Positions 149 through 9,698 of a DNA stretch of 23,839 nucleotides are shown in pieces (positions within the stretch are counted from its first letter, which is position 1; the number at the start of each line of letters is the position of its first letter). The position numbers and the translations under genes were made by a program. This stretch comes from a virus: positions 1 through 23,839 of IMG/VR virus record IMGVR_UViG_3300036846_000729; one strand, written 5' to 3'. The notes under the pieces were generated by a model, which did no database searches, was not told the origin of the DNA, and saw only the letters and a program-made list of their open reading frames with translations.

Positions 149-543
149 TCGTCGTCGGGTTGGTCTGGTTCAGGGACTGGCGTCGGTGTCGGCTCGGTGG
201 GCTCCGGTGTCTCGCTGCGCATTGGTGCCTCCCTGTTGTTTGCGGGGATTATGCCTGCTTGTTCGCATAATTCGCAGAAGACTTTGAAGTCGAGTGCGAC
301 GATCGGTGAACGGTCGTTGTGGCCGGCGACCACAACCAACCATGGTCTCGCTTCGCGTCTGCCTTGGTCGCGTGCCTGGGTGATCCACGCTGTGAGGACT
401 GGTGGCCCGGGTCTCGAGGAGCGTTTGATTTCGACGGCGAAGGGGGTGTTGACGCAGTCTGAGACGGCGGCGCCGATTGGTCCGGCGCGTCTGCCGCCGA
501 GGGCGGTGCAGATTCGGCGTTCGAGGTCTTTCCATGCGGTCAT
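145..543 (-). CDS. PD-(D/E)XK-like nuclease (Holliday-junction-resolvase-like phage protein)
   Basis: This 132-aa protein opens with an amphipathic helix (WKDLERRICTALGGRR) followed by a segment containing Asp29, Glu38 and Lys40 in the context FAVEIKRS. That matches the E-x-K half of a PD-(D/E)XK core. A later strand (PWLVVVAGHNDRSPIVAL) and a closing helix fit small archaeal-Hjc-like or phage resolvase folds common in actinophage replication regions. The C-terminal 25 residues are a Pro/Glu-rich tail of low complexity. The ATG start overlaps the upstream TGA (ATGA). Its likely role is cleavage of branched DNA during replication or recombination, consistent with the nearby RecT-like and replication genes. 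Family membership rests on motif reading only. Confidence 0.55.
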   Translation of the reverse strand: MTAWKDLERRICTALGGRRAGPIGAAVSDCVNTPFAVEIKRSSRPGPPVLTAWITQARDQGRREARPWLVVVAGHNDRSPIVALDFKVFCELCEQAGIIPANNREAPMRSETPEPTEPTPTPVPEPDQPDDE

Positions 544-1049
544 GGCTTGTACCGGTCGGCGAGCCGCTTCGCGAGCTCGAGCCCGAGTTCGCGGTCGACG
601 GGTTCGGCGGGTTCGGGTTGGTGCTTGGTGTAGGCGCCGGCGTTCGACCTAGGCTCGTCGCTGCCGGTTTTCGCCTTTGCTTTTGGCGCGTGAGCGACCG
701 CCGTTTTCTTCTCTCCTCTTAAGATCTTCTCTCGCGAGCGCGCGAGCGCTAGCGGCTTGCTAGCAGAGAACTCGATCAAACCGGCATGGTTGAGCGATTC
801 GAGGTCGCGTGTCGTTACTCTCTCACCGAGCTGCCGTGATAGCTGTCGTGTGTCTGCCAACAGTTGTCCGTTGCTTGACGCGTACGCGAGACGGAGGTCT
901 TTGAGGATGCCGCGAAGGTGGAACGAGAGCCTGCGGTAGTCACCGTGGGAGTGCTGGCTCACGTAGTCCTTGATCCAACTCGGGTCGCGGTCCTTGTAGT
1001 GCTGAAACTCGGGCCAGTTGTGGATCACGATCCAGGGGTCAGCGCTCAT
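540..1049 (-). CDS. replication-initiator-like / winged-helix phage protein
   Basis: This protein is 169 aa from the ATG at 1049, chosen because it forms an ATGA overlap with the small gene upstream; an in-frame extension to 1082 is possible but less likely. The N-terminal half (WIVIHNWPEFQHYKDRDPSW, then a predicted helical region with RQLSRQLGERVT and LESLNHAGLIEF) resembles the DNA-binding N-terminal domain of phage replication initiators and replisome organisers, in which a short gene-specific HTH recognises the phage origin. The C-terminal third is basic and low-complexity (KKTAVAHAPKAKAKTG). It sits downstream of the RecT-like gene, the usual place for a replication module. No helicase loader or primase is visible in this window. 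I infer origin binding or host replisome recruitment. Confidence 0.5.
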   Translation of the reverse strand: MSADPWIVIHNWPEFQHYKDRDPSWIKDYVSQHSHGDYRRLSFHLRGILKDLRLAYASSNGQLLADTRQLSRQLGERVTTRDLESLNHAGLIEFSASKPLALARSREKILRGEKKTAVAHAPKAKAKTGSDEPRSNAGAYTKHQPEPAEPVDRELGLELAKRLADRYKP

Positions 1050-1189: not shown

Positions 1190-1659
1190 CGCGCCCTGGT
1201 AATCGTCGCCCTCCATGGCGCCGGCACGACGCTCCTACACGCCTCGATGATCTCGCGGTATTCCGGGTTGGCGCCGGCGAGCTGTTTCAGGACGCGACCG
1301 TCGGGCTTGTACGAGATCACTTCTTGCACGGCGGCCATCACGCGGTCTTCGGGCAAACCCGCTGCTCGCAGCTGGAGGGCGAGTTTGTGGCCGTCGTACT
1401 CGGTCCGCTCGCCACCGTGGATCACGGCTTTCAGCTCGTCCAAGTACAGCGTTTTGGTGCCCTGGAGGTGCGCCTCGAGCCGTAACGCGTCTGTGAGGAC
1501 GCCGCGGAGCTCGTCCAAGCGGTGGCGGATGTCGGTGAGCTGATCCAACGCGTCGGCGACCTGGTTGGGGTCGCGGAGGTCGACGATGACGCCGGTGAGG
1601 GGCATCACGAGCTCGGGGTTCTCCTCGACGCCCTGGGCGATCAGGGCGAGCTCACTCAT
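1186..1659 (-). CDS. phage hypothetical protein, helical
   Basis: This 157-aa protein begins at the ATG at 1659, which overlaps the end of the RecT-like gene by 8 nt (ATGAGTGA). It is mostly helical. A central stretch (DALDQLTDIRHRLDELRGVL) looks like a coiled coil, and a C-terminal half (LALQLRAAGLPEDRVMAAVQ, then YKPDGRVLKQLAGANPEY) looks globular. It lies between the single-strand-annealing protein and the replication-initiator-like protein, where many phages encode a Gp157-like or other accessory recombination protein. I do not recognise this one firmly. No catalytic motif is visible. Confidence 0.55.
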   Translation of the reverse strand: MSELALIAQGVEENPELVMPLTGVIVDLRDPNQVADALDQLTDIRHRLDELRGVLTDALRLEAHLQGTKTLYLDELKAVIHGGERTEYDGHKLALQLRAAGLPEDRVMAAVQEVISYKPDGRVLKQLAGANPEYREIIEACRSVVPAPWRATITRAR

Positions 1660-2458
1660 CGGCGGCTAGCTGCTCGAGCTCAGCGATCGTCTCGGCCTCC
1701 GCGTCGTCGGGCTCGATGGGGTCGCCGAACGGGATGTCCTCATCGACCAAGTACGACTCCTGGACTTCGACGCCGGGGTTGATCTCATGCAGCTCGTCGT
1801 CCAGCGAGAAGCCGAGCGCGACTTCGGGTGCGAAGTCGACGATCGCGTTCTTCGACGCCCTTGCCCACAGCATCCGTGCCGGATGCGTCAGCCAGGGTGA
1901 ACCCTGCCTGACTATCCCCGCCGTTTTGGCTTGCTCGAGCGTGTAGGTGGCTTCGCCGACGACCTCGCTGTTGGAGTCGACCAACCTCGCGGTGCACGAC
2001 GTGTCGGACGAGTCGACGCGGTAGACGCGGTAACCAGCCCGGATCGCGAGGGCGCGGAGCAGCTGGGCGCCGACGTACAACCGTCCTTTGATCAGGCTGA
2101 GTTCGGCGGCGGCCATCGGCGTGAGGCCAAGCTCAGCGATGTAGTACAACCGCAGGGCGGCAGCTGCGCCACGGGCTTTCTCGGTGTTCTCACCCGACTC
2201 GGACAGGGCGAGCCATTGCCCTAGCCGGGCGAGCTCGTCGAGCCTCGTGGGTTCGCGGACGGCCAGTTGGGTCTCTTGGGTGCTCACGGGTGGTTTCCTT
2301 TCTTCGATCACGGTCAGTAACCAGGTCGGGTACGTGCCGGGCGTGGGGCGTGTGGAGTTGTCGAACCGGACGAGCGGCCAGCCGCGTTCCGTGGTCTCGA
2401 ACCCGGTGACGACCCCGTGGGTGCCGTCGCGGGTGCGGACACGGTCACCGACGTTCAT
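1652..2458 (-). CDS. RecT-like single-strand annealing protein with N-terminal SH3/KOW-like extension
   Basis: This 268-aa reading frame has two parts. Residues 1-52 (VGDRVRTRDGTHGVVTGFE, then LVRFDNSTRP) look like a small beta-barrel of the SH3/KOW type. Residues about 70-225 match the pattern of actinophage RecT-like recombinases: LGLTPMAAAELSLIKGRLYV, ALAIRAGYRV, then YTLEQAKTAGIV and WLTHPARMLWARA, ending near PEVALGFSLDDEL. Such proteins anneal complementary single strands in phage recombination. The C-terminus is acidic, as often in annealing proteins. A GTG at 2287 behind a good Shine-Dalgarno could start the recombinase alone (211 aa), so the extension may be a separate product or a true fusion. 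Family assignment is by pattern, not by search. Confidence 0.6.
   Translation of the reverse strand: MNVGDRVRTRDGTHGVVTGFETTERGWPLVRFDNSTRPTPGTYPTWLLTVIEERKPPVSTQETQLAVREPTRLDELARLGQWLALSESGENTEKARGAAAALRLYYIAELGLTPMAAAELSLIKGRLYVGAQLLRALAIRAGYRVYRVDSSDTSCTARLVDSNSEVVGEATYTLEQAKTAGIVRQGSPWLTHPARMLWARASKNAIVDFAPEVALGFSLDDELHEINPGVEVQESYLVDEDIPFGDPIEPDDAEAETIAELEQLAADE
2285..2301 (-). promoter_or_regulatory. internal ribosome binding site and GTG start in the RecT-like gene
   Basis: On the minus strand AAAGGAAACCACCCGTG places a purine-rich Shine-Dalgarno 8 nt before an in-frame GTG (2287-2285), exactly at the junction between the SH3-like segment and the RecT-like domain. By contrast, the ATG at 2458 has its only nearby GGAG 16 nt upstream. 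Confidence 0.5.
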
Positions 2459-2493: not shown

Positions 2494-2829
2494 TCACAGC
2501 AGCCCGCACAGCCTGGCGCTCGTGGGCCACGGCCAGAACCCACGCCCCGCCAAATACGCTTTGATCGCGACGGCGATCTGGACCTGCGGCGGCCAGTGGT
2601 CGGCGGTCCCCCAGGCCCTAAAATAGTCGCGGCCGTAAGTGAGTTGGAACTCAATATCCATTTGCAGGCCGCCGTAGTAGGGGGCGCCCGGATCGGTCCA
2701 TGATCCTTCGTACCGATGTATGCACAGAAACGCCGACATCAGCGCGGTCGGGCTCGAGCTGCCGGCGAGCGCCGGTGTTGGTAAGGCGATCGCGACAGCT
2801 GCGACGGGGACTACTAGCAGGCGGGACAT
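2494..2829 (-). CDS. secreted transglycosylase-like (Rpf-type) peptidoglycan enzyme
   Basis: This 111-aa protein has an N-terminal signal peptide (MSRLLVVPVAAVAIALPTPALA, with cleavage predicted after Ala22). The mature part begins with a Cys36-x4-Glu41-Gly-Ser-Trp motif, then YYGGLQMD, WGTADHWP and FWPWPTSARLCGLL. Glu41 aligns with the catalytic glutamate of resuscitation-promoting factors and lytic transglycosylases (CESGGNW...YYGGLQF). Cys36 and Cys108 could form a disulfide. The short architecture resembles host proteins of Thermoleophilia/Actinobacteria. The start has a strong ribosome site (AAGGAGGACACGT before ATG). It would be exported and cleave glycan strands. Its place in the early operon, away from endolysin and tail genes, is unusual and suggests host modification rather than lysis. 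Confidence 0.75.
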   Translation of the reverse strand: MSRLLVVPVAAVAIALPTPALAGSSSPTALMSAFLCIHRYEGSWTDPGAPYYGGLQMDIEFQLTYGRDYFRAWGTADHWPPQVQIAVAIKAYLAGRGFWPWPTSARLCGLL

Positions 2830-2856
2830 ACGTGTCCTCCTTGCTCGGGAACATGG

Positions 2857-3057: not shown

Positions 3058-3416
3058 GGGGTCGTCTCCGTCCCGGCCAGCGCCGCCCGGAGCGCGGCCC
3101 ACGCTTCTACGGCTTCGTCCAGCTTGTCTTCCGCAAGCATCGGCAATCCGAGGAAGTTGGGGTGGAGTGCGTTCAGGCGCTCGGCTGCTCGGGCGATGGC
3201 GAGAAGCGCCGGAAGAGCCGCGACGGCAGCCACGATCAGCTCGTTATCGGCTCGCTTCGAGGAATACGCGCCGATGGGGTGGATCCAGCCGCATGTCTCG
3301 CCGTGCTCGAAGTCTTCTGGGCCGTCGTCCATGCCGTCCGTTTCGATGCGCCACGGCCCAGGTGTCGCCGCTGCGAGCGCGGCTTCGAGGGCTGCTGTGT
3401 CTACCCGGCCAGTCAC
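3054..3416 (-). CDS. Ea22-like phage protein (ATPGPW motif)
   Basis: This 120-aa protein starts at the GTG at 3416, which overlaps the stop of the alanine-repeat gene (GTGA). The reading frame runs open to 3884 only because it crosses the 12-bp repeat, so the longer version is an artefact. The protein begins VTGRVDTAALEAALAAATPG with the PW that follows; AATPGPW and the later DNELIVAAVAALPALLAIA are hallmarks of a widespread phage early-region family (Ea22-like / ead-like) of unknown biochemical function. The first 28 nt of the gene recur at 4224-4251, on the far side of the repeat gene. Confidence 0.6.
   Translation of the reverse strand: MTGRVDTAALEAALAAATPGPWRIETDGMDDGPEDFEHGETCGWIHPIGAYSSKRADNELIVAAVAALPALLAIARAAERLNALHPNFLGLPMLAEDKLDEAVEAWAALRAALAGTETTP
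3389..3416 (-). repeat. 28-nt direct repeat, copy A (start of the Ea22-like gene)
   Basis: The first 28 nt of the Ea22-like gene (GTGACTGGCCGGGTAGACAC and the 8 nt after it) match 4224-4251 at 25 of 28 positions in the same orientation. The two copies bracket the alanine-repeat gene. Confidence 0.8.
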
Positions 3417-4195
3417 GCTGTTTCCGTGACCTCGATGAGGCGGTCGAGGAGGAGCAATGCTGAGGCTTGGAGTGCCTTCGTGGTCGGCGTGAGTGCGGCC
3501 CCCGCTGCGTCCCCCGCTGCGTCCCACGCTGCGGCCCTCGCTGCGTCCCCCGCTGCGGCCCTCGCTGCGGCCCCCGCTGCGGCCCCCGCTGCGTCCCCCG
3601 CTGCGGCCCTCGCTGCGGCCCACGCTGCGGCCCTCGCTGCGTCCCACGCTGCGGCCCCCGCTGCGGCCCACGCTGCGGCCCTCGCTGCGTCCCACGCTGC
3701 GGCCCCCGCTGCGGCCCACGCTGCGGCCCACGCTGCGTCCCACGCTGCGGACGAATCCTTCCTGGCCATGTCTAGGCTCGGCTGCGCCTTCCAGGCCGCC
3801 GCGCTGCTCGTCAATGGCGCGAGTGCTTCGAGCGTCTCGGCCTGGGCGGTCAGTCCCGCGAGGCGCAGCCATGCCGGCGCGCACTCACGGGCGAGCCAGT
3901 CCGTCAGCATCCACGCCCGCTTCGACTCCTGCGCCGCCGTGCCCTTTGTCCCGACGAGTCGAGTGATGTACGGCTTCAGCATCTGCCGGTCGGTGTCGTT
4001 CATCGCGTCGTTCCACCGGATCAGGAACGCGGTAATCACCTTCGACGCGCACACCGGATGGTCAGACCACGGCTCGCGGGAGATGTAACTCACGGCTTCC
4101 ATCACGCACGCCGCGCCGTTCGGCGCCGGGTGCGAACCGTGCGCGAGTTCGACGTGGTCGAGCCACGCCTCAAGCTCGGGTGTCAGGGTGCTCAT
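3413..4195 (-). CDS. phage protein with C-terminal tetrapeptide (A-A-[WRG]-[DA]) repeat
   Basis: This 260-aa protein begins at the ATG at 4195, behind a strong ribosome site (AAGGAGGGAAGT). Residues 1-130 form a globular domain (ACVMEAVSYISREPWSDHP, FLIRWNDAMND, KPYITRLVGTKGT, RAWMLTDWLARECAPAWLRL) that I associate with a recurrent actinophage/prophage family of unknown function; Cys30, Cys49 and Cys105 and several Trp are present. Residues 149-231 are about twenty tandem copies of Ala-Ala-(Trp/Arg/Gly)-(Asp/Ala), expected to be a long helix. A closing helix (ALQASALLLLDRLIEVTETA) follows. The repeat spacing of four residues would put Trp/Arg and Asp on a slowly rotating face. Function is unknown; a surface-binding or scaffolding role is only a guess. 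Confidence 0.65.
   Translation of the reverse strand: MSTLTPELEAWLDHVELAHGSHPAPNGAACVMEAVSYISREPWSDHPVCASKVITAFLIRWNDAMNDTDRQMLKPYITRLVGTKGTAAQESKRAWMLTDWLARECAPAWLRLAGLTAQAETLEALAPLTSSAAAWKAQPSLDMARKDSSAAWDAAWAAAWAAAGAAAWDAARAAAWAAAGAAAWDAARAAAWAAARAAAGDAAGAAAGAAARAAAGDAARAAAWDAAGDAAGAALTPTTKALQASALLLLDRLIEVTETA
3504..3751 (-). repeat. 12-bp tandem repeat array, about 20.7 copies, in-frame
   Basis: On the plus strand the unit is GCTGCG-K-CCC-H-C. I count 20 complete units from 3504 to 3743 plus a partial at 3744-3751, and a decayed unit upstream of 3504. Only two positions vary: position 7 (T in 7 copies, G in 13) and position 11 (C, A or T). In the coding (minus) frame these change Asp/Ala and Trp/Gly/Arg respectively. 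Because 12 is divisible by 3 and the unit has no stop in any frame, all six frames are open across it. Confidence 0.95.
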
Positions 4196-4223
4196 ACTTC
4201 CCTCCTTGAAGATGGTGTGCGCG

Positions 4224-4251
4224 GGGCTGCTATGTCCACCCGGCCGGTCAC
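4224..4251 (-). repeat. 28-nt direct repeat, copy B (orphan gene start)
   Basis: GTGACCGGCCGGGTGGACAT and the following 8 nt read V-T-G-R-V-D-I-A-A, like the start of the Ea22-like gene, then diverge. The frame continues for only 19 codons and stops with a TGA that overlaps the ATG of the alanine-repeat gene at 4195. It looks like the remnant of a gene start displaced by an insertion. Confidence 0.7.
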
Positions 4252-4266
4252 TGACCAGGAGGACGC

Positions 4267-4476
4267 TCACCGTGGTCTCATCTCCAGGATCTCGGTGACG
4301 CACCGGTCGACGCTTTGGGCGAGCTCATCGGTCGTCAACCACCGTTGCTGGTGGGGGTCCCAGACGCGGGACCAGTCCGAGACGGCGGCGCGGAGCCGGC
4401 CTTGGCGCCTCTCCAAAGGCTCGGCCGGCCCCACAGCCGTCCTGTTACGGCTGGCCCAGTCCGGCAGCCGTGACAT
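4267..4476 (-). CDS. small phage protein
   Basis: This 69-aa protein starts at the ATG at 4476, which shares one base with the TGA of the methyltransferase (TGATG). The reading frame extends upstream to 4668 but that part is antisense-like and lies inside the methyltransferase gene. The protein (MSRLPDWASRNRTAVGPAEP, then RVWDPHQQRWLTTDELAQSV) has no motif I recognise. The WDPHQQRWLTTDELA stretch looks folded, and co-translation with the methyltransferase is likely. Confidence 0.5.
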   Translation of the reverse strand: MSRLPDWASRNRTAVGPAEPLERRQGRLRAAVSDWSRVWDPHQQRWLTTDELAQSVDRCVTEILEMRPR

Positions 4477-5405
4477 CACGGCGCGTATCCCCCGTACTGT
4501 CGAAACACGCGCCGGAATCTCCGCCTGTCCGAACCGAAATAGAAGAACGACTGCCCGTGCGTAGGAGTCTTCCGTTCGGCCAGCTCGTCCTCGCTCGCCT
4601 CCAGGAAACTGATGCGGCCGCGGGTGAAGCAGAGAGCGGTAGCGGCGTTCATTGCCGTGTGGAACCACTCCGTGTCGGTCGCGCTGTTCGTGAGCAGGAT
4701 CCCTTCCTTGATATGGCCTTCTTGAAATGACTCGACGAGCTTGAAGACGAACTGCTTTACGTCGGGCATCTTGTAAGGCGGGTTGAGGAACACGCGACCG
4801 TGCCAGCGTTGAGCCAGCCCGTCTTCCTCGCGAGTGAAGTAGTCCTCAGCCTTTACGTGTTCCTGGGCGCGATCAGAGGAGGCCGGGTCGAGTTCGATCG
4901 CGCCCATGACCTCAACAGCGGCGTCGAGGTATTCACGCGGCGTGTACCACTCGACTTCGCCGGTCAGCGAGATGTGCCGAGTCACGTTGACGCTGCCGGG
5001 GTTCTTGATCATCCGCAGCATCGCTCGACGTGACACCCACCACTCCTCATCGGCGAACCGTCCATCCAACGCGCGGGAGAGCAACCGGAACTCACCCCGC
5101 TCGTCCTTGCTCAAACCCGAATCGGTCACGACCGACTCGGCATGTACTCCGCGTTTAGGCTCGCCGAGGAGTTGGCCGATCCGTCCCTCTAGACGACGCT
5201 GAGCACCGAGCATGTGGCCACGCGCTTCGCGGTCCCGTAGATACGCGGTTAGGGCGCGGGCACCGTCAAGCCAAGTCAGACCAGCTTCGACGTCCTGAAC
5301 TTCGGACAGGCGCGAAGCAACTTGTTGCTCGATCGTCGCGGCCTGGGTGGCCACCAGCTCCTGCCCAACCGGTGGCAGTACAGGCAGCAGGCCATTGCCG
5401 GTCAC
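4476..5405 (-). CDS. phage Dam-type DNA N6-adenine methyltransferase
   Basis: This protein is about 309 aa. It starts at the GTG at 5405, which overlaps the nuclease stop (GTGA); another in-frame GTG lies at 5414. Residues 1-135 are a helical N-terminal region with many charged residues. Residues about 150-305 are the phage Dam family (PF05869 type): EWYTP near 152, LDPASS near 172, the catalytic NPPY at about 208-211 (class motif for N6-adenine transfer), LLTNSATDTEWF, CFTRGRISF and the closing GQSFFYFG. It would methylate adenine in phage and host DNA, either to evade restriction or to guard against the nuclease encoded just upstream. The coupling to that nuclease gene is by direct overlap. 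The target sequence cannot be read from the protein. Confidence 0.85.
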   Translation of the reverse strand: MTGNGLLPVLPPVGQELVATQAATIEQQVASRLSEVQDVEAGLTWLDGARALTAYLRDREARGHMLGAQRRLEGRIGQLLGEPKRGVHAESVVTDSGLSKDERGEFRLLSRALDGRFADEEWWVSRRAMLRMIKNPGSVNVTRHISLTGEVEWYTPREYLDAAVEVMGAIELDPASSDRAQEHVKAEDYFTREEDGLAQRWHGRVFLNPPYKMPDVKQFVFKLVESFQEGHIKEGILLTNSATDTEWFHTAMNAATALCFTRGRISFLEASEDELAERKTPTHGQSFFYFGSDRRRFRRVFRQYGGYAP

Positions 5406-5917: not shown

Positions 5918-6111
5918 AGCCCCAAAACCCTGGTGTTTGCAGGGCTTTTGGCCGTTAATGTTCGGCGGTCTGTAACAGCGGTAAAAGCCCCGACCGACCG
6001 CTCTGGGTAGGTTTGGCTCAGAATGGCCCTAAGGGCAGGTAACGCCTTTAGTGCCCACTCCAAGCTACGACTGGCTTCCTGAGCCAAAAACTCTAGGGAC
6101 TCCTGGCTCAC
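5914..6111 (-). CDS. 65-residue ORF of unknown function overlying the candidate attP
   Basis: The GTG at 6111 overlaps the integrase stop (GTGA) and its TGA overlaps the nuclease ATG (ATGA), the pattern of real genes in this operon. Yet its codon use is unlike its neighbours: TTG, TTA, CTA and AGG are common, and the base composition is less GC-rich. The protein (VSQESLEFLAQEASRSLEWA and onward) shows one likely helix and no known motif. The DNA beneath is packed with inverted repeats. It may be a small excisionase-like or accessory protein, or a non-functional frame that happens to span attP. I cannot decide between these. Confidence 0.4.
   Translation of the reverse strand: MSQESLEFLAQEASRSLEWALKALPALRAILSQTYPERSVGAFTAVTDRRTLTAKSPANTRVLGL
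5922..6110. other. candidate phage attachment site (attP) region
   Basis: CCAAAACCCTG (5922-5932) and CAGGGCTTTTGG (5940-5951) are inverted arms with one extra base in the second, around a 7-bp centre GTGTTTG. This is the geometry of a tyrosine-recombinase core site. Toward the integrase lie AGCGGT/ACCGCT (5977-6002), GCCCT-A-AGGGC (6026-6036), TTTGGCTCAG/CTGAGCCAAA (6012-6021 and 6079-6088), and a third TGGCTCA near 6104, which could be arm-type sites. The region adjoins the integrase stop, where attP usually lies. The first palindrome, flanked by A and T runs, could instead be a bidirectional terminator. Confidence 0.45.
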
Positions 6112-7139
6112 AGGTTCGCGACCTTCTCGGCGACGTCGTCGACGGTCAAATGGCCGTAGTAGTACTGCGTCGTGCGGATCGACTCGTGCCCCATCATCAG
6201 CTGCCGCTCCTCGATGTCGAACCCCTCAGTGCGCAACCACCACCCGTAGGTGTGCCTGGTTTGGTGCGGGTTGAGGTAACGCACGCCTGCGTCACACACA
6301 CCGCGTTTGTACCAATGCTCGAACGTGGTATCGCCGATCGGCTCACGGTGAACCCTGTGCGGACCACCACCTGGGCGCTTGTACCAGAGGTAATCGTTCC
6401 GGTCGAGCCGTTCGAGCAGGTCGAGGTCAGCGACGGCGGCCAATGCGGCCGGCGGAAGCGCGACGATCCGGTCCTTGCCGCCCTTGCCGTCGTACACGTA
6501 GAGACGAGCGCGGTTCAGGTCGATCTGGGAGCGGTTCAGATGGCGGGCTTCGCCGCGTCGGAGCCCGGTCTTGAACAGGATCGTCCACAGCTGCCCGTCC
6601 GGGGTTGGGAGCGCCTCGAGCAGGCCGATCTCCTCGTCGGTGTACAGCTCGGAGGGGCGCCGTTTCGGGGCGCGGAACGTCGGCACCTTGCCCATCGGGC
6701 TCCGGTCGATCCGTTCTTCCATCTCGGCCCACGCGAAGAACCGGTTGTAGATGCTCCGAGCGATGTGACGTGACCGGACGGGGATGCTGATGAGCTCCCT
6801 GTTGATGTCGGCGCCGGTGAACTCGCAAAGCCGTTTGCGTGGATGGGCACGCAACAGCGGCGCGACCTGCCGCACGTACGCGTACTGCGTCTTCGGCCGT
6901 TTGCCCTCAAGCTCGAGGTAGACGAGCCAGTCGATCACATCCTGAAACGCGACGGCGGTCTCGTGCCGGACGTCACGCAAGAGATCCTCCAACACGAGGA
7001 ACTCGGCGGAACGCGAGTACGTAGGATCGGTCGTGCATGGGAGCTGACTCCTCCTGTGCCTGCCCCGGGACGTTACAGCGTCGCCGGGGCGCTTTCTATT
7101 GTCGGTCAGGAGAGTAGCGCGAAGAGCACTGACGATCAT
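6108..7139 (-). CDS. int: tyrosine recombinase / phage integrase
   Basis: This 343-aa protein starts at the ATG at 7139, overlapping the upstream stop (ATGA). Residues about 45-145 form the SAM-like core-binding domain (YLELEGKRPKTQYAYVRQV). Residues 165-335 are the catalytic domain with a full set of active-site residues: Arg194 (TGLRRGEA), Lys219 (GKGGKDR), His292 and Arg295 (PHQTRHTY), His318 (MGHES) and the nucleophile Tyr328 (TTQYYYGH). It would catalyse integration and, with an excisionase, excision by way of a covalent 3'-phosphotyrosine. It is cotranscribed with the Cro-like gene from the early promoter, rather than being set apart. The first 35 residues are basic and of uncertain fold. 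Candidate attP lies directly downstream. Confidence 0.93.
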   Translation of the reverse strand: MIVSALRATLLTDNRKRPGDAVTSRGRHRRSQLPCTTDPTYSRSAEFLVLEDLLRDVRHETAVAFQDVIDWLVYLELEGKRPKTQYAYVRQVAPLLRAHPRKRLCEFTGADINRELISIPVRSRHIARSIYNRFFAWAEMEERIDRSPMGKVPTFRAPKRRPSELYTDEEIGLLEALPTPDGQLWTILFKTGLRRGEARHLNRSQIDLNRARLYVYDGKGGKDRIVALPPAALAAVADLDLLERLDRNDYLWYKRPGGGPHRVHREPIGDTTFEHWYKRGVCDAGVRYLNPHQTRHTYGWWLRTEGFDIEERQLMMGHESIRTTQYYYGHLTVDDVAEKVANL

Positions 7140-7393
7140 TCGTCCTCCTCATCGTGGTAATGCCACTCCGCGTCGAACCGCGGCACCTCGGGCGGCGGCC
7201 CGTCGACGAGCTCGACGACCATCCGCTCAGGGTCGGCCTCGACGCGCGCATGCAGCGTCTGGGCGTGCAGGAGTTCGCCCTCGGTGATCTCGACGCGGCC
7301 GCCGGCGCGCTGCACGAGCGCTTTGAACGCGACCGTGAGCCCAGCCATCTCGTTGAGGCCGACCGGGTCGCCGTGACGAGGGTCGCCGCTCAC
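7136..7393 (-). CDS. small acidic phage protein
   Basis: This 85-aa protein has a GTG start at 7393 overlapping the Cro-like gene stop (GTGA), and its TGA overlaps the integrase ATG (ATGA). The sequence (GLTVAFKALVQRAGGRVEIT, then MVVELVDGPPPEVPRFDAEW) suggests a helix plus two strands and an acidic His-containing tail (HYHDEEDE). I recognise no family. Its position between the Cro-like protein and integrase would suit a regulator or excision factor, but it lacks an obvious HTH. Confidence 0.55.
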   Translation of the reverse strand: MSGDPRHGDPVGLNEMAGLTVAFKALVQRAGGRVEITEGELLHAQTLHARVEADPERMVVELVDGPPPEVPRFDAEWHYHDEEDE

Positions 7394-7623
7394 AGCGGCT
7401 CGGGCAGGAGGTCGGCCACGCGAATCCGGAGCGTTGAGGCGAGCCGGTAGAGAGTGTCGATGTCAGGTTTGTTCGCGCCTCGCTCCCACCGGGAAACAGT
7501 GAAAAGGCTTACGCCGAGCTCCCGGGCAAGCGCCTCCTGCGAGTACCCAGCGGCCTTGCGGTGACGTCGGACGCGCGCTCCGAAGAGCTTGTCGCGCCCC
7601 CCCCGGGGCTCCTCGAGTGTCAT
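7390..7623 (-). CDS. XRE-family transcriptional regulator (Cro-like, early operon)
   Basis: This protein is 77 aa from the ATG at 7623; an in-frame GTG at 7635 falls close to the predicted transcription start and could be used leaderless. It has an HTH_3 domain: FGARVRRHRKAAGYSQEALA, RELGVSLFTVSRWERGANKP, then IDTLYRLASTLRIRVADLLP. The recognition helix is around SLFTVSRWERG. It diverges from a second XRE gene across about 60 bp that contain a near-consensus promoter and three palindromes. By analogy with lambdoid and actinophage switches it is probably the Cro/early regulator, made first on the operon that includes integrase. It may bind the palindrome that overlaps its own start. Confidence 0.85.
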   Translation of the reverse strand: MTLEEPRGGRDKLFGARVRRHRKAAGYSQEALARELGVSLFTVSRWERGANKPDIDTLYRLASTLRIRVADLLPEPL

Positions 7624-7631: not shown

Positions 7632-7644
7632 TCACTCTGTGACT
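7630..7644. promoter_or_regulatory. candidate operator O2 over the early -10 and +1
   Basis: AGTCAC-TCT-GTGACT is a perfect 6-bp inverted repeat with a 3-bp centre. It shares bases with the -10 hexamer TATAGT, so a bound repressor would block polymerase directly. Confidence 0.6.
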
Positions 7645-7670
7645 ATACGAGGCTAGCTTTTCAATGTCAA
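7642..7670 (-). promoter_or_regulatory. early sigma70-type promoter
   Basis: Reading the minus strand, -35 TTGACA (7670-7665) is followed by a 17-nt spacer and -10 TATAGT (7647-7642). This is a perfect -35, optimal spacing and five of six at -10. Transcription would start near 7635, right at the first codons of the Cro-like gene. It is the best promoter I see in the window. Confidence 0.8.
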
Positions 7671-7686: not shown

Positions 7687-8064
7687 ATGGCGGCTAACAC
7701 CTCTCTAGCCAAGTCGCGCACAGTGGGGGTCTATGTGCAAGAGGCTGTGGTGGTTGTGAGTGAACGCGCGAAGGCCATCGGGTCGCAGATCGCGGCCGCG
7801 CGGAACGACAAGCATTGGAAGCAGAAACAGCTGGCTGCGGCCGTACACGTGGAGCCGGTCACCGTCTCCCGTTGGGAGCGCGGCCAGCATGTTCCGAGCT
7901 ACGAGACCTTGGAGTTGATCGCAGAGGCCACCGAGAAGACCTTGTCCTTCTTCTTGCCAGAAGACGACGTGAAGAACGCGGAATCTGGTTCTGACGCAGA
8001 AGTGATCGCACGACTCGACCGAATTGAGGGCATGCTCGAGAAGCTTCTCGCCTTCTACATCTAA
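7687..8064 (+). CDS. XRE-family repressor-like regulator (lysogeny side)
   Basis: This protein is 125 aa from the ATG at 7687. GTG starts at 7750 (with AAGAGG 5 nt before it) and 7756 would give about 105 and 103 aa, and I am unsure which is used. The HTH_3 domain runs RAKAIGSQIAAARNDKHWKQ, then KQLAAAVHVEPVTVSRWERG, then TLELIAEATEKTLSFFLPED. A short C-terminal helix (EVIARLDRIEGMLEKLLAFY) looks like a dimerisation coiled coil. There is no LexA-type peptidase domain, so RecA-driven self-cleavage is not expected. It is one of only two plus-strand genes and opposes both large operons. It is probably the maintenance repressor acting on the palindromes at 7612-7674. Confidence 0.8.
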   Translation: MAANTSLAKSRTVGVYVQEAVVVVSERAKAIGSQIAAARNDKHWKQKQLAAAVHVEPVTVSRWERGQHVPSYETLELIAEATEKTLSFFLPEDDVKNAESGSDAEVIARLDRIEGMLEKLLAFYI

Positions 8065-8175: not shown

Positions 8176-8553
8176 ATGAATCGTCTAATCCCAACCACTC
8201 TCGCAGTGGCCGCCATCACCTGTGCGATCGCGCTCACGAGCTCGGCCGCCCCGACCCTCGTCACTCCTACCCCCGCGAACTGGAAATGCAAGCCGTTCCA
8301 GAACGCCGGTCTCGTCGTCGCGTTCACGAGGAAAACGCTCGTCTACAACGGCTTCCACCCGAACATCCAGTTCACATGCAATGCCGGCATCATCAGGCTC
8401 GTCGGGATCATGGACGGCGAGGAGTATCTAGGCGCCGTCGACAAACTAGGTCCTCACAGGATCAGCATCGGGATCGTCGAGCACCCAGCCTCGCCGCCCG
8501 GGCGCAGCCTGTACACCGACACCTCGAACTTCACAGTCCCGTTCGTGGCGTGA
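8176..8553 (+). CDS. secreted protein of unknown function, candidate moron
   Basis: This 125-aa protein has its ATG at 8176 after AAAGGGAACTC. Residues 1-24 are a signal peptide (basic MNR, hydrophobic core, ALTSSAA before cleavage). The mature protein has two Cys (38 and 68) suited to a disulfide and a beta-rich look (NAGLVVAFTRKTLVYNG, NAGIIRLVGIMDGEEYLGAV, ISIGIVEHP, TSNFTVPFVA). I recognise no family. It lies on the repressor strand, ends 3 bp from the stop of the last late gene, and may have its own regulatory element. This is typical of a moron expressed from a prophage, for example for superinfection exclusion or lysogenic conversion. That role is inference. Confidence 0.65.
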   Translation: MNRLIPTTLAVAAITCAIALTSSAAPTLVTPTPANWKCKPFQNAGLVVAFTRKTLVYNGFHPNIQFTCNAGIIRLVGIMDGEEYLGAVDKLGPHRISIGIVEHPASPPGRSLYTDTSNFTVPFVA

Positions 8554-8556
8554 CTT

Positions 8557-8787
8557 CTACTTAGGCACGTCTCTCTTCTCGGGTGGGAGCTCGAGTGTGT
8601 CGTCGAGCTTCCACCCCTCCACCAGCTCCTCGTCGTCGTGGTGGTAGCGGTCGCGTTCGAGGAAGAACCCGAACCGTGTTCGCCGCACCTCACTGTCTCT
8701 GAGCAGCACCCGGGCCGCGACGAGCACGAGCACGATCAGGACACCGGCGATGATCGCGAGGTCGGTGCTGCCGAGGAAACCGGTCAC
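8557..8787 (-). CDS. single-TM protein, candidate holin
   Basis: This 76-aa protein has its GTG at 8787 overlapping the endolysin stop (GTGA). One membrane segment (residues about 9-28, DLAIIAGVLIVLVLVAARVL) is followed by a charged cytosolic-type tail (RDSEVRRTRFGFFLERDRYH and an acidic/Pro end). It is the last gene of the late operon, immediately after the endolysin, where actinophage holins are normally found. The one-TM topology fits a class III-like or pinholin-like protein, but sequence alone cannot prove that it forms holes. No second TM protein is present nearby. Confidence 0.6.
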   Translation of the reverse strand: MTGFLGSTDLAIIAGVLIVLVLVAARVLLRDSEVRRTRFGFFLERDRYHHDDEELVEGWKLDDTLELPPEKRDVPK

Positions 8788-9698
8788 GGCCCGGCGACAC
8801 GCACGAACAGGGTTGCCTGGCCGGTGGTGGAGCGGGTGCAGCGCATCACCATGCCGCCGTTCGAGTAGTCGGTCGGGCTGGTGTTGCCCTCGATCGCTTT
8901 GAAGCTCGACCCGCCGGCCCACGTCTCGAAGATCCCGATGTGGTCATGGGTGCCGTCGTACGCCCAGTCGTACACAACGAGGTCACCAGGGATAGGGCTC
9001 TGCGTCGTTGTAAGCCCGTTCCGCTGGTTGCGGGCGTCCTGGACGACGTAGGGGCAGTATGCGTACGCCGACGCCTTAGCGAACGACGGTGAGCCTCCCG
9101 CCTTCGTCTCGTAGCACCACGTCACGAACATCGCGCACCACGGCTGGTAGTTCATCCCGTACCAGTCGCCGTACTTCGTGTCGTTGTTGCCGGTTTCGGC
9201 GTACCCGATCTCCGCGGCTGCAGCGTCGAGTGCGCGTTCCCGTGTTGTTTTCACGGCCCCGGGTTTCGGGGGTGCGGGCTCATGGCCGCCGTACAGCTCC
9301 CATGCCTGCGCGACGAGGTTGGCGGCGTTCGCGTCCATCGCCATCTCACCCTCATGCGGGCCGGCCGGGACACGGATCGAACGCAAGAGGTTGAACGTCT
9401 TCTCGCCGATGTAACCGGTGTCAGCGAGACCCTGCTGGCGCTGCACCCCCGCGACGCCGGTCTCGGAGACGTTGCCGCCCTTGCCGTGACTGAACGCGTT
9501 GCTGAACGCCCGGTCGAAGGCTGTGGCGGGGCCGGGCCAGCGGCCAGCGCGCCAAACAGTGCGTTTGTACGCCTCTATGTCTGGCCCGTCAACGGAGGCC
9601 GTGTGGCCCGGCTCCGCGTCTGGGGGGTAGCAAGGACGAGGGAACCCGGGGACGGCGACCATCGGGCCGCCCTTGTACGGGTGCTCCCACCAGCTCAT
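8784..9698 (-). CDS. endolysin with peptidoglycan-binding segment and CHAP amidase/peptidase domain
   Basis: This 304-aa protein starts at the ATG at 9698, overlapping the previous stop (ATGA). Residues about 37-110 form a PG-binding-1-like segment (GVAGVQRQQGLADTGYIGEK, then TFNLLR). Residues about 155-300 form a CHAP domain: PWCAMFVTWCYE with nucleophile Cys188, PIPGDLVVYDW, HDHIGIFE with His253, and AIEGNTS with Glu270/Asn272. There is no signal peptide, so release would depend on the adjacent holin candidate. It would cut peptide or amide bonds of peptidoglycan at the end of the lytic cycle. The N-terminal 35 residues (PYKGGPMVAVPGFPRPCYPP) are typical of actinophage and Thermoleophilia endolysins in my recollection. 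Confidence 0.88.
   Translation of the reverse strand: MSWWEHPYKGGPMVAVPGFPRPCYPPDAEPGHTASVDGPDIEAYKRTVWRAGRWPGPATAFDRAFSNAFSHGKGGNVSETGVAGVQRQQGLADTGYIGEKTFNLLRSIRVPAGPHEGEMAMDANAANLVAQAWELYGGHEPAPPKPGAVKTTRERALDAAAAEIGYAETGNNDTKYGDWYGMNYQPWCAMFVTWCYETKAGGSPSFAKASAYAYCPYVVQDARNQRNGLTTTQSPIPGDLVVYDWAYDGTHDHIGIFETWAGGSSFKAIEGNTSPTDYSNGGMVMRCTRSTTGQATLFVRVAGP

Follow-up and report, generated by a model that had tools for sequence, protein, structure and literature searches.

Soil bacteria are often slow or dormant, and phage reproduction in such cells is an open question. The locus described here raises a narrower form of it: what might a phage do with a secreted-looking relative of the resuscitation factors (Rpfs) that is encoded among its recombination and replication genes?

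The gene and its surroundings

The window (the whole stretch of DNA that was analysed) is a 23,839-base virus record with an HK97-type portal and capsid, an integrase, a CHAP endolysin, a Dam methylase and RecT. The gene under study and the elements read within or beside it are the following.

2494..2829, minus strand: predicted gene for an Rpf-like secreted transglycosylase, 111 aa, ATG start
2836..2842, minus strand: strong Shine-Dalgarno AAGGAGG, 6 nt before the ATG, from sequence
2764..2829, minus strand: signal-peptide-like N-terminus, residues 1-22 (MSRLLVVPVAAVAIALPTPALA), read from sequence
2497..2751, minus strand: catalytic domain, residues 27-111, predicted lysozyme-like Rpf fold (AlphaFold2 pLDDT mostly >90; Foldseek)
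2722..2724, minus strand: Cys36 codon, shifted cysteine, first of the pair
2707..2709, minus strand: codon of the putative catalytic Glu41, invariant in 48 aligned relatives, register anchored by the bacterial copy L088
2506..2508, minus strand: Cys108 codon, shifted cysteine, second of the pair

The open reading frame at 2494-2829 on the minus strand is a real gene. A gene caller based on codon usage and trained on the remaining genes of the window picked it (score 14.5), and a chance reading frame is ruled out by relatives encoded in 61 contigs of the viral collection, far beyond chance, when the window protein is the query (169 contigs when the family alignment is used). Pairwise dN/dS values among close relatives lie mostly between 0.14 and 0.4 and consequently indicate purifying selection. 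The earlier note on this DNA had described a signal peptide and the pattern CxxxxEGSW...YYGGLQ. The motif is present as described (C36-x4-E41-G-S-W...Y51-Y-G-G-L-Q), and the N-terminus, MSRLLVVPVAAVAIALPTPALA followed by GSS, looks by eye like a Sec signal peptide with putative cleavage between ALA and GSS; model confidence is low in this segment, and many relatives have similar N-termini.

Seven close relatives (L002, L003, L004, L005, L007, L009 and L010) have no ATG, GTG or TTG at the expected start and show ATC or CTG there after a purine-rich stretch. This suggests that near-cognate starts (CTG or ATC) are used in several close relatives, so that translation may be weak.

The surroundings of the gene comprise the following features.

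540..1049 (ORF 540-1082), minus strand: replication protein (phrog_26426, E=2.5e-4)
1652..2458, minus strand: RecT-like ssDNA annealing protein (phrog_561, E=2.6e-16), next gene downstream after a 35-bp gap
6108..7139, minus strand: tyrosine integrase of the same putative operon (PF00589, E=8.8e-25)
7390..7623, minus strand: Cro/CI-like HTH protein (PF01381, E=4.9e-15), first gene of the putative leftward early operon
7642..7670, minus strand: promoter-like TTGACA-17-TATAGT (11/12 match), candidate early promoter
7756..8064, plus strand: divergent HTH protein, candidate repressor
8784..9698, minus strand: endolysin with CHAP domain (E=4.4e-9), a separate lysis gene

The promoter-like site at 7670-7642 points away from the candidate repressor, and no minus-strand terminator-like site was found from there down to position 1100. 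Closely spaced minus-strand genes follow in the order HTH, integrase, nuclease, dam, three small genes, Rpf-like gene, recT and replication gene. The Rpf-like gene thus probably lies within a leftward operon, which would be transcribed early; note that operon position does not prove early expression of the gene itself. A RecT-like neighbor and an endolysin 6 kb away had been reported previously, and both were confirmed. The CHAP endolysin lies 5.96 kb from the gene, with the candidate repressor between the two, which is not the position of a late gene beside holin and endolysin.

Two further genes of the window were noted. A secreted-looking 125-aa protein encoded on the opposite strand (8176-8553, plus), in the interval that separates the candidate repressor from the lysis genes, has no Pfam, PHROG or PADLOC match and is a candidate lysogenic-conversion gene. 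The minus-strand gene at 3413-4195 ends in an Ala/Trp/Arg-rich repeat (AAARAAAWDAA...), and its homologue in L012, 61% identical, adjoins the Rpf-like gene.

A branch of Rpfs with moved cysteines

Against Pfam PF06737 (Transglycosylas) the window protein scores 16.3 bits (E=0.016), below the gathering cut-off of 27, and it has no curated Pfam or NCBIfam match. PF06737 is nevertheless matched by 26 of 48 relatives at E<=0.1 (best 8.2e-13). Searched against the PDB, the family profile finds RpfB, RpfE and RpfC at 3.6e-9 to 4.7e-5 (RpfB at 3.6e-9), and profile-profile comparison with classical Rpfs gives a probability of 98.9 and E=3.9e-17. The AlphaFold2 model of the window protein (pLDDT 88.6) has the predicted Rpf lysozyme-like fold, with E41 closing helix 1, just ahead of the YYGG loop. 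The top 15 Foldseek matches of this model in the PDB are all RpfB, RpfC or RpfE chains with probability 1.00, none of which passes E 0.001, and TM reaches 0.84 over the RpfB catalytic domain. As a family, these proteins are clearly related to the Rpf/lysozyme superfamily. No PADLOC match marks the Rpf-like gene as a defence gene. It is a stand-alone 111-aa gene with a signal-peptide-like N-terminus and not a domain inside a virion tail protein, and the tape measure protein of the window shows no Pfam lysin domain.

Alignment of 48 relatives revealed invariant residues at C36, E41, G53, G54, Q56, G66, G74, Q84, G97, W101 and C108. E41 corresponds to the catalytic Glu of Rpfs, because L088 has the sequence CIAGHESGGRW, in which ESGGRW is the counterpart of ESGGNW in classical Rpfs. 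Loss of Glu41 in relatives, which the earlier note had named as evidence against its idea, was not seen, and the residue is kept in 76 of 76 distinct viral loci. The cysteines set the family apart. The combination of C-x4-E with WP-x5-C occurs in all 76 viral and all 20 bacterial copies compared and in none of 25 classical Rpfs, all of which carry instead CE and WP-x-C. The first cysteine of the subfamily stands five residues before the Glu, and both cysteines are displaced by four residues, roughly one turn of a helix, as expected of a disulfide that has moved and would still be paired. The tree separates the shifted-cysteine branch from classical Rpf with a support of 100/100; judged by its sequences, the subfamily is a distinct Rpf branch.

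RpfB, RpfC and RpfE of Mycobacterium tuberculosis (PF06737) share with the window protein the lysozyme-like fold, YYGGLQ, the Glu that ends helix 1, a conserved pair of cysteines and secretion, which for the window protein is putative. In contrast to them, the window subfamily has both cysteines shifted by four and a GTADHWP...CGLL signature, and the window protein lacks accessory domains. The Rpf/transglycosylase-like identity proposed at first reading therefore stands in part: by profile and fold the protein is secreted-looking and Rpf/lysozyme-like, but it is not an ordinary Rpf, because its PF06737 score falls below the cut-off and its cysteines are shifted.

Recurrence beside replication genes

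The nearest marker within 2.5 kb was a co-directional replication or recombination gene in 36 of 76 distinct viral loci. Among the 40 loci that have a replication or recombination gene within 3 kb, the nearest one was co-directional in 39. The gene abuts terminase or portal in 18 of the 76 (12 on the same strand, 6 on the opposite strand); the remaining loci have an integrase only (3), a co-directional CHAP lysin (4), no marker nearby (13) or another arrangement (2). When positions were drawn at random within each locus, nearness to replication genes was found in 25 of 36 loci versus 18.8 expected (simulated p ~0.02), a weakly significant result from related loci that are not independent.

Four genome plans have a replication-adjacent Rpf-like gene, and they are unrelated to each other: integrase-RPF-recT-rep-terL; serine integrase / RPF-exonuclease; PolIII-RPF-HU-ThyX; and PolA-exo-Sak4-RPF. 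The early-operon placement to which attention had first been drawn in the window thus recurs in unrelated phages, as a matter of position and not of expression. Twelve contigs of the PolIII and PolA plans, which may be incomplete, gave no Phage_integrase or Resolvase match, and this weakens a role restricted to lysogeny.

Distribution and origin

Bacterial copies at E <1e-24 were found in 36 of 61 genomes related to the L063-bearing genome. Across the phylum, the same subfamily occurs in only 3 of 396 sampled genomes, the other matches there being ordinary Rpfs at E >1e-13. As far as sampled, the subfamily appears confined to one actinobacterial lineage, its phages and some Saccharimonadales. 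The actinobacterial lineage, with its chromosomal copies, is the likely host and may, judging by similar sequences, belong to the class Thermoleophilia. The subfamily may be the sole Rpf-like enzyme of this lineage, since a PF06737 search finds no separate classical Rpf in G001, G009, G026 and G054, assemblies that may be incomplete.

The bacterial copies L067-L088 belong, like the window copy, to the shifted-cysteine subfamily, but they are chromosomal and carry roughly 100 extra residues between signal peptide and domain, of which the window copy has none. In two trees, built on 80 columns only and with deeper forks not resolved, the window copy falls among viral copies (81% to L003/L117) and apart from most bacterial ones. 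Comparison with host transglycosylases had been proposed as a check on recent capture from the host; for the window copy such capture is rejected, because its nearest kin are viral in both trees. Several moves between virus and bacterium are needed to explain the tree, and three changes of virus label are forced by well-supported branches. Six loci (L035, L168, L170, L171, L177 and L178) have an Rpf-like gene of bacterial type beside terminase or portal and on the strand opposite to its neighbors; these copies were plausibly acquired from bacteria more recently. Promoter and terminator scans of L171 and L168 gave no clear signature of independent transcription.

The same shifted-cysteine transglycosylase was observed in Saccharimonadales-type sequences (L064 at 3678-4532, L206, L207 and L208) at a single conserved site, flanked by an S4-domain/TlyA-like gene on one side and YchF/CRP-like genes on the other, with efp and ssb close by. 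One genome has an allele of bacterial type, whereas in others the allele is closer to the phage type. Misbinning of these four sequences was rejected on the flanking ssb, efp, S4-domain and YchF-like genes, which were identified by eye at that site.

Rpf-type genes in other phages

Stand-alone Rpf genes are already annotated in cultured actinophages, namely prophi79-1, GiJojo and Weasels2. Mycobacterium phage prophi79-1 gp102 resembles the window gene in being phage-borne and a stand-alone Rpf domain of ~102 aa, but it is annotated as RpfC type and lies between a terminase and a RuvC-like gene, with no recT/replication operon. Rhodococcus phage Weasels2 (gp46, three genes from thymidylate synthase) and Streptomyces phages GiJojo (gp174) and BRock likewise have stand-alone Rpf-like (transglycosylase-like) genes. 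These were found only via the divergent member L060; the window protein itself had no match in the cultured phage collection. Rpf-like domains also occur in tape measure proteins (PMC1796659) and in a few LysA endolysins (PMC3314691). The tape measure motifs of mycobacteriophages (motif 1 of Barnyard, motif 3 of TM4) share Rpf-type or related wall hydrolysis with the window gene. Unlike it, they are virion tail domains that act at DNA entry, where TM4 motif 3 matters on stationary hosts (PMC1796659), and not a separate secreted protein of an early region. The literature searched yielded nothing about phage-encoded Rpfs of soil viruses, nor about phages of Thermoleophilia.

Possible functions

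The reading that we prefer, tentatively and at somewhat less than an even chance, is that an early exported lytic transglycosylase remodels the wall of the infected cell and perhaps enables resting cells to sustain infection. The gene would be transcribed together with integrase, dam, recT and replication genes as part of the leftward early operon, and the Sec pathway would export a lytic transglycosylase of ~89 mature residues. Outside the cell, the mature enzyme would cut the glycan strands of host peptidoglycan during phage genome copying. The wall of the infected cell would be remodelled, its turnover sustained and the host's own Rpf-like enzyme boosted, and a slow or resting cell would thereby be able to support infection. 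We infer the export, disulfide pairing, enzyme activity, early timing and host identity that this scheme supposes; the benefit to the phage is a guess. Counting against this reading are the 18 loci in which the gene abuts terminase or portal and the four in which a same-strand CHAP lysin precedes it.

Those four loci (L165, L049, L183 and L136), with a co-directional CHAP lysin within 2.5 kb, bear on the idea of an additional wall lysin that exports itself, thins the wall and assists the CHAP endolysin as infection ends. The protein is a wall hydrolase by its predicted fold, and the Rpf-like hydrolase of GiJojo lies three genes from the endolysin. We consider such a lysis helper unlikely, given that in the window the gene lies 6 kb off, in another module and behind the early promoter-like site, that in most loci the CHAP lysin is far from the gene or lies on the other strand, and that an early exported lysin risks premature lysis unless it is weak. 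Superinfection exclusion appears equally improbable. An early exported enzyme would here alter the outer wall, and later phages could neither adsorb to the infected cell or lysogen nor penetrate it. An exported early-operon product in integrase-bearing phages would suit this role, as would the lone opposite-strand gene of the six loci of bacterial type, which is placed as an independently expressed accessory gene might be; yet nothing points to exclusion specifically, and a role in lysogens would not be general because two genome plans have no detected integrase.

The earlier note had itself proposed that an early phage copy might stimulate resting hosts. In this reading the enzyme would leave the cell and resuscitate resting neighbors, providing more growing hosts for the progeny. 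In the part of PMC1796659 that cites Mukamolova 2006, peptidoglycan degradation is apparently required for Rpf resuscitation, and the window protein looks exported and, unlike the bacterial copies, has no stalk. We regard a diffusible wake-up factor as quite improbable, as the subfamily is distinct from proven Rpfs and no published phage example was found in the literature searched. Just as doubtful is a wider version, in which independent exploiters of the lineage (phages of at least four plans, and Saccharimonadales possibly living on it) would carry the form of the resuscitation factor that is peculiar to that lineage, exported as an enzyme or signal to drive resting hosts back into growth.

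Implications

An Rpf-related wall enzyme whose catalytic residue is kept across 76 viral loci, often among the replication genes of unrelated phages, brings the question of phage reproduction in dormant hosts within reach of a test that needs a single small protein and a point mutant of it. The enzyme also defines an Rpf branch with moved cysteines that is common to a bacterial lineage, its phages and Saccharimonadales. These patterns suggest, and do not prove, that phages of this actinobacterial group rework or wake the host wall before making progeny.
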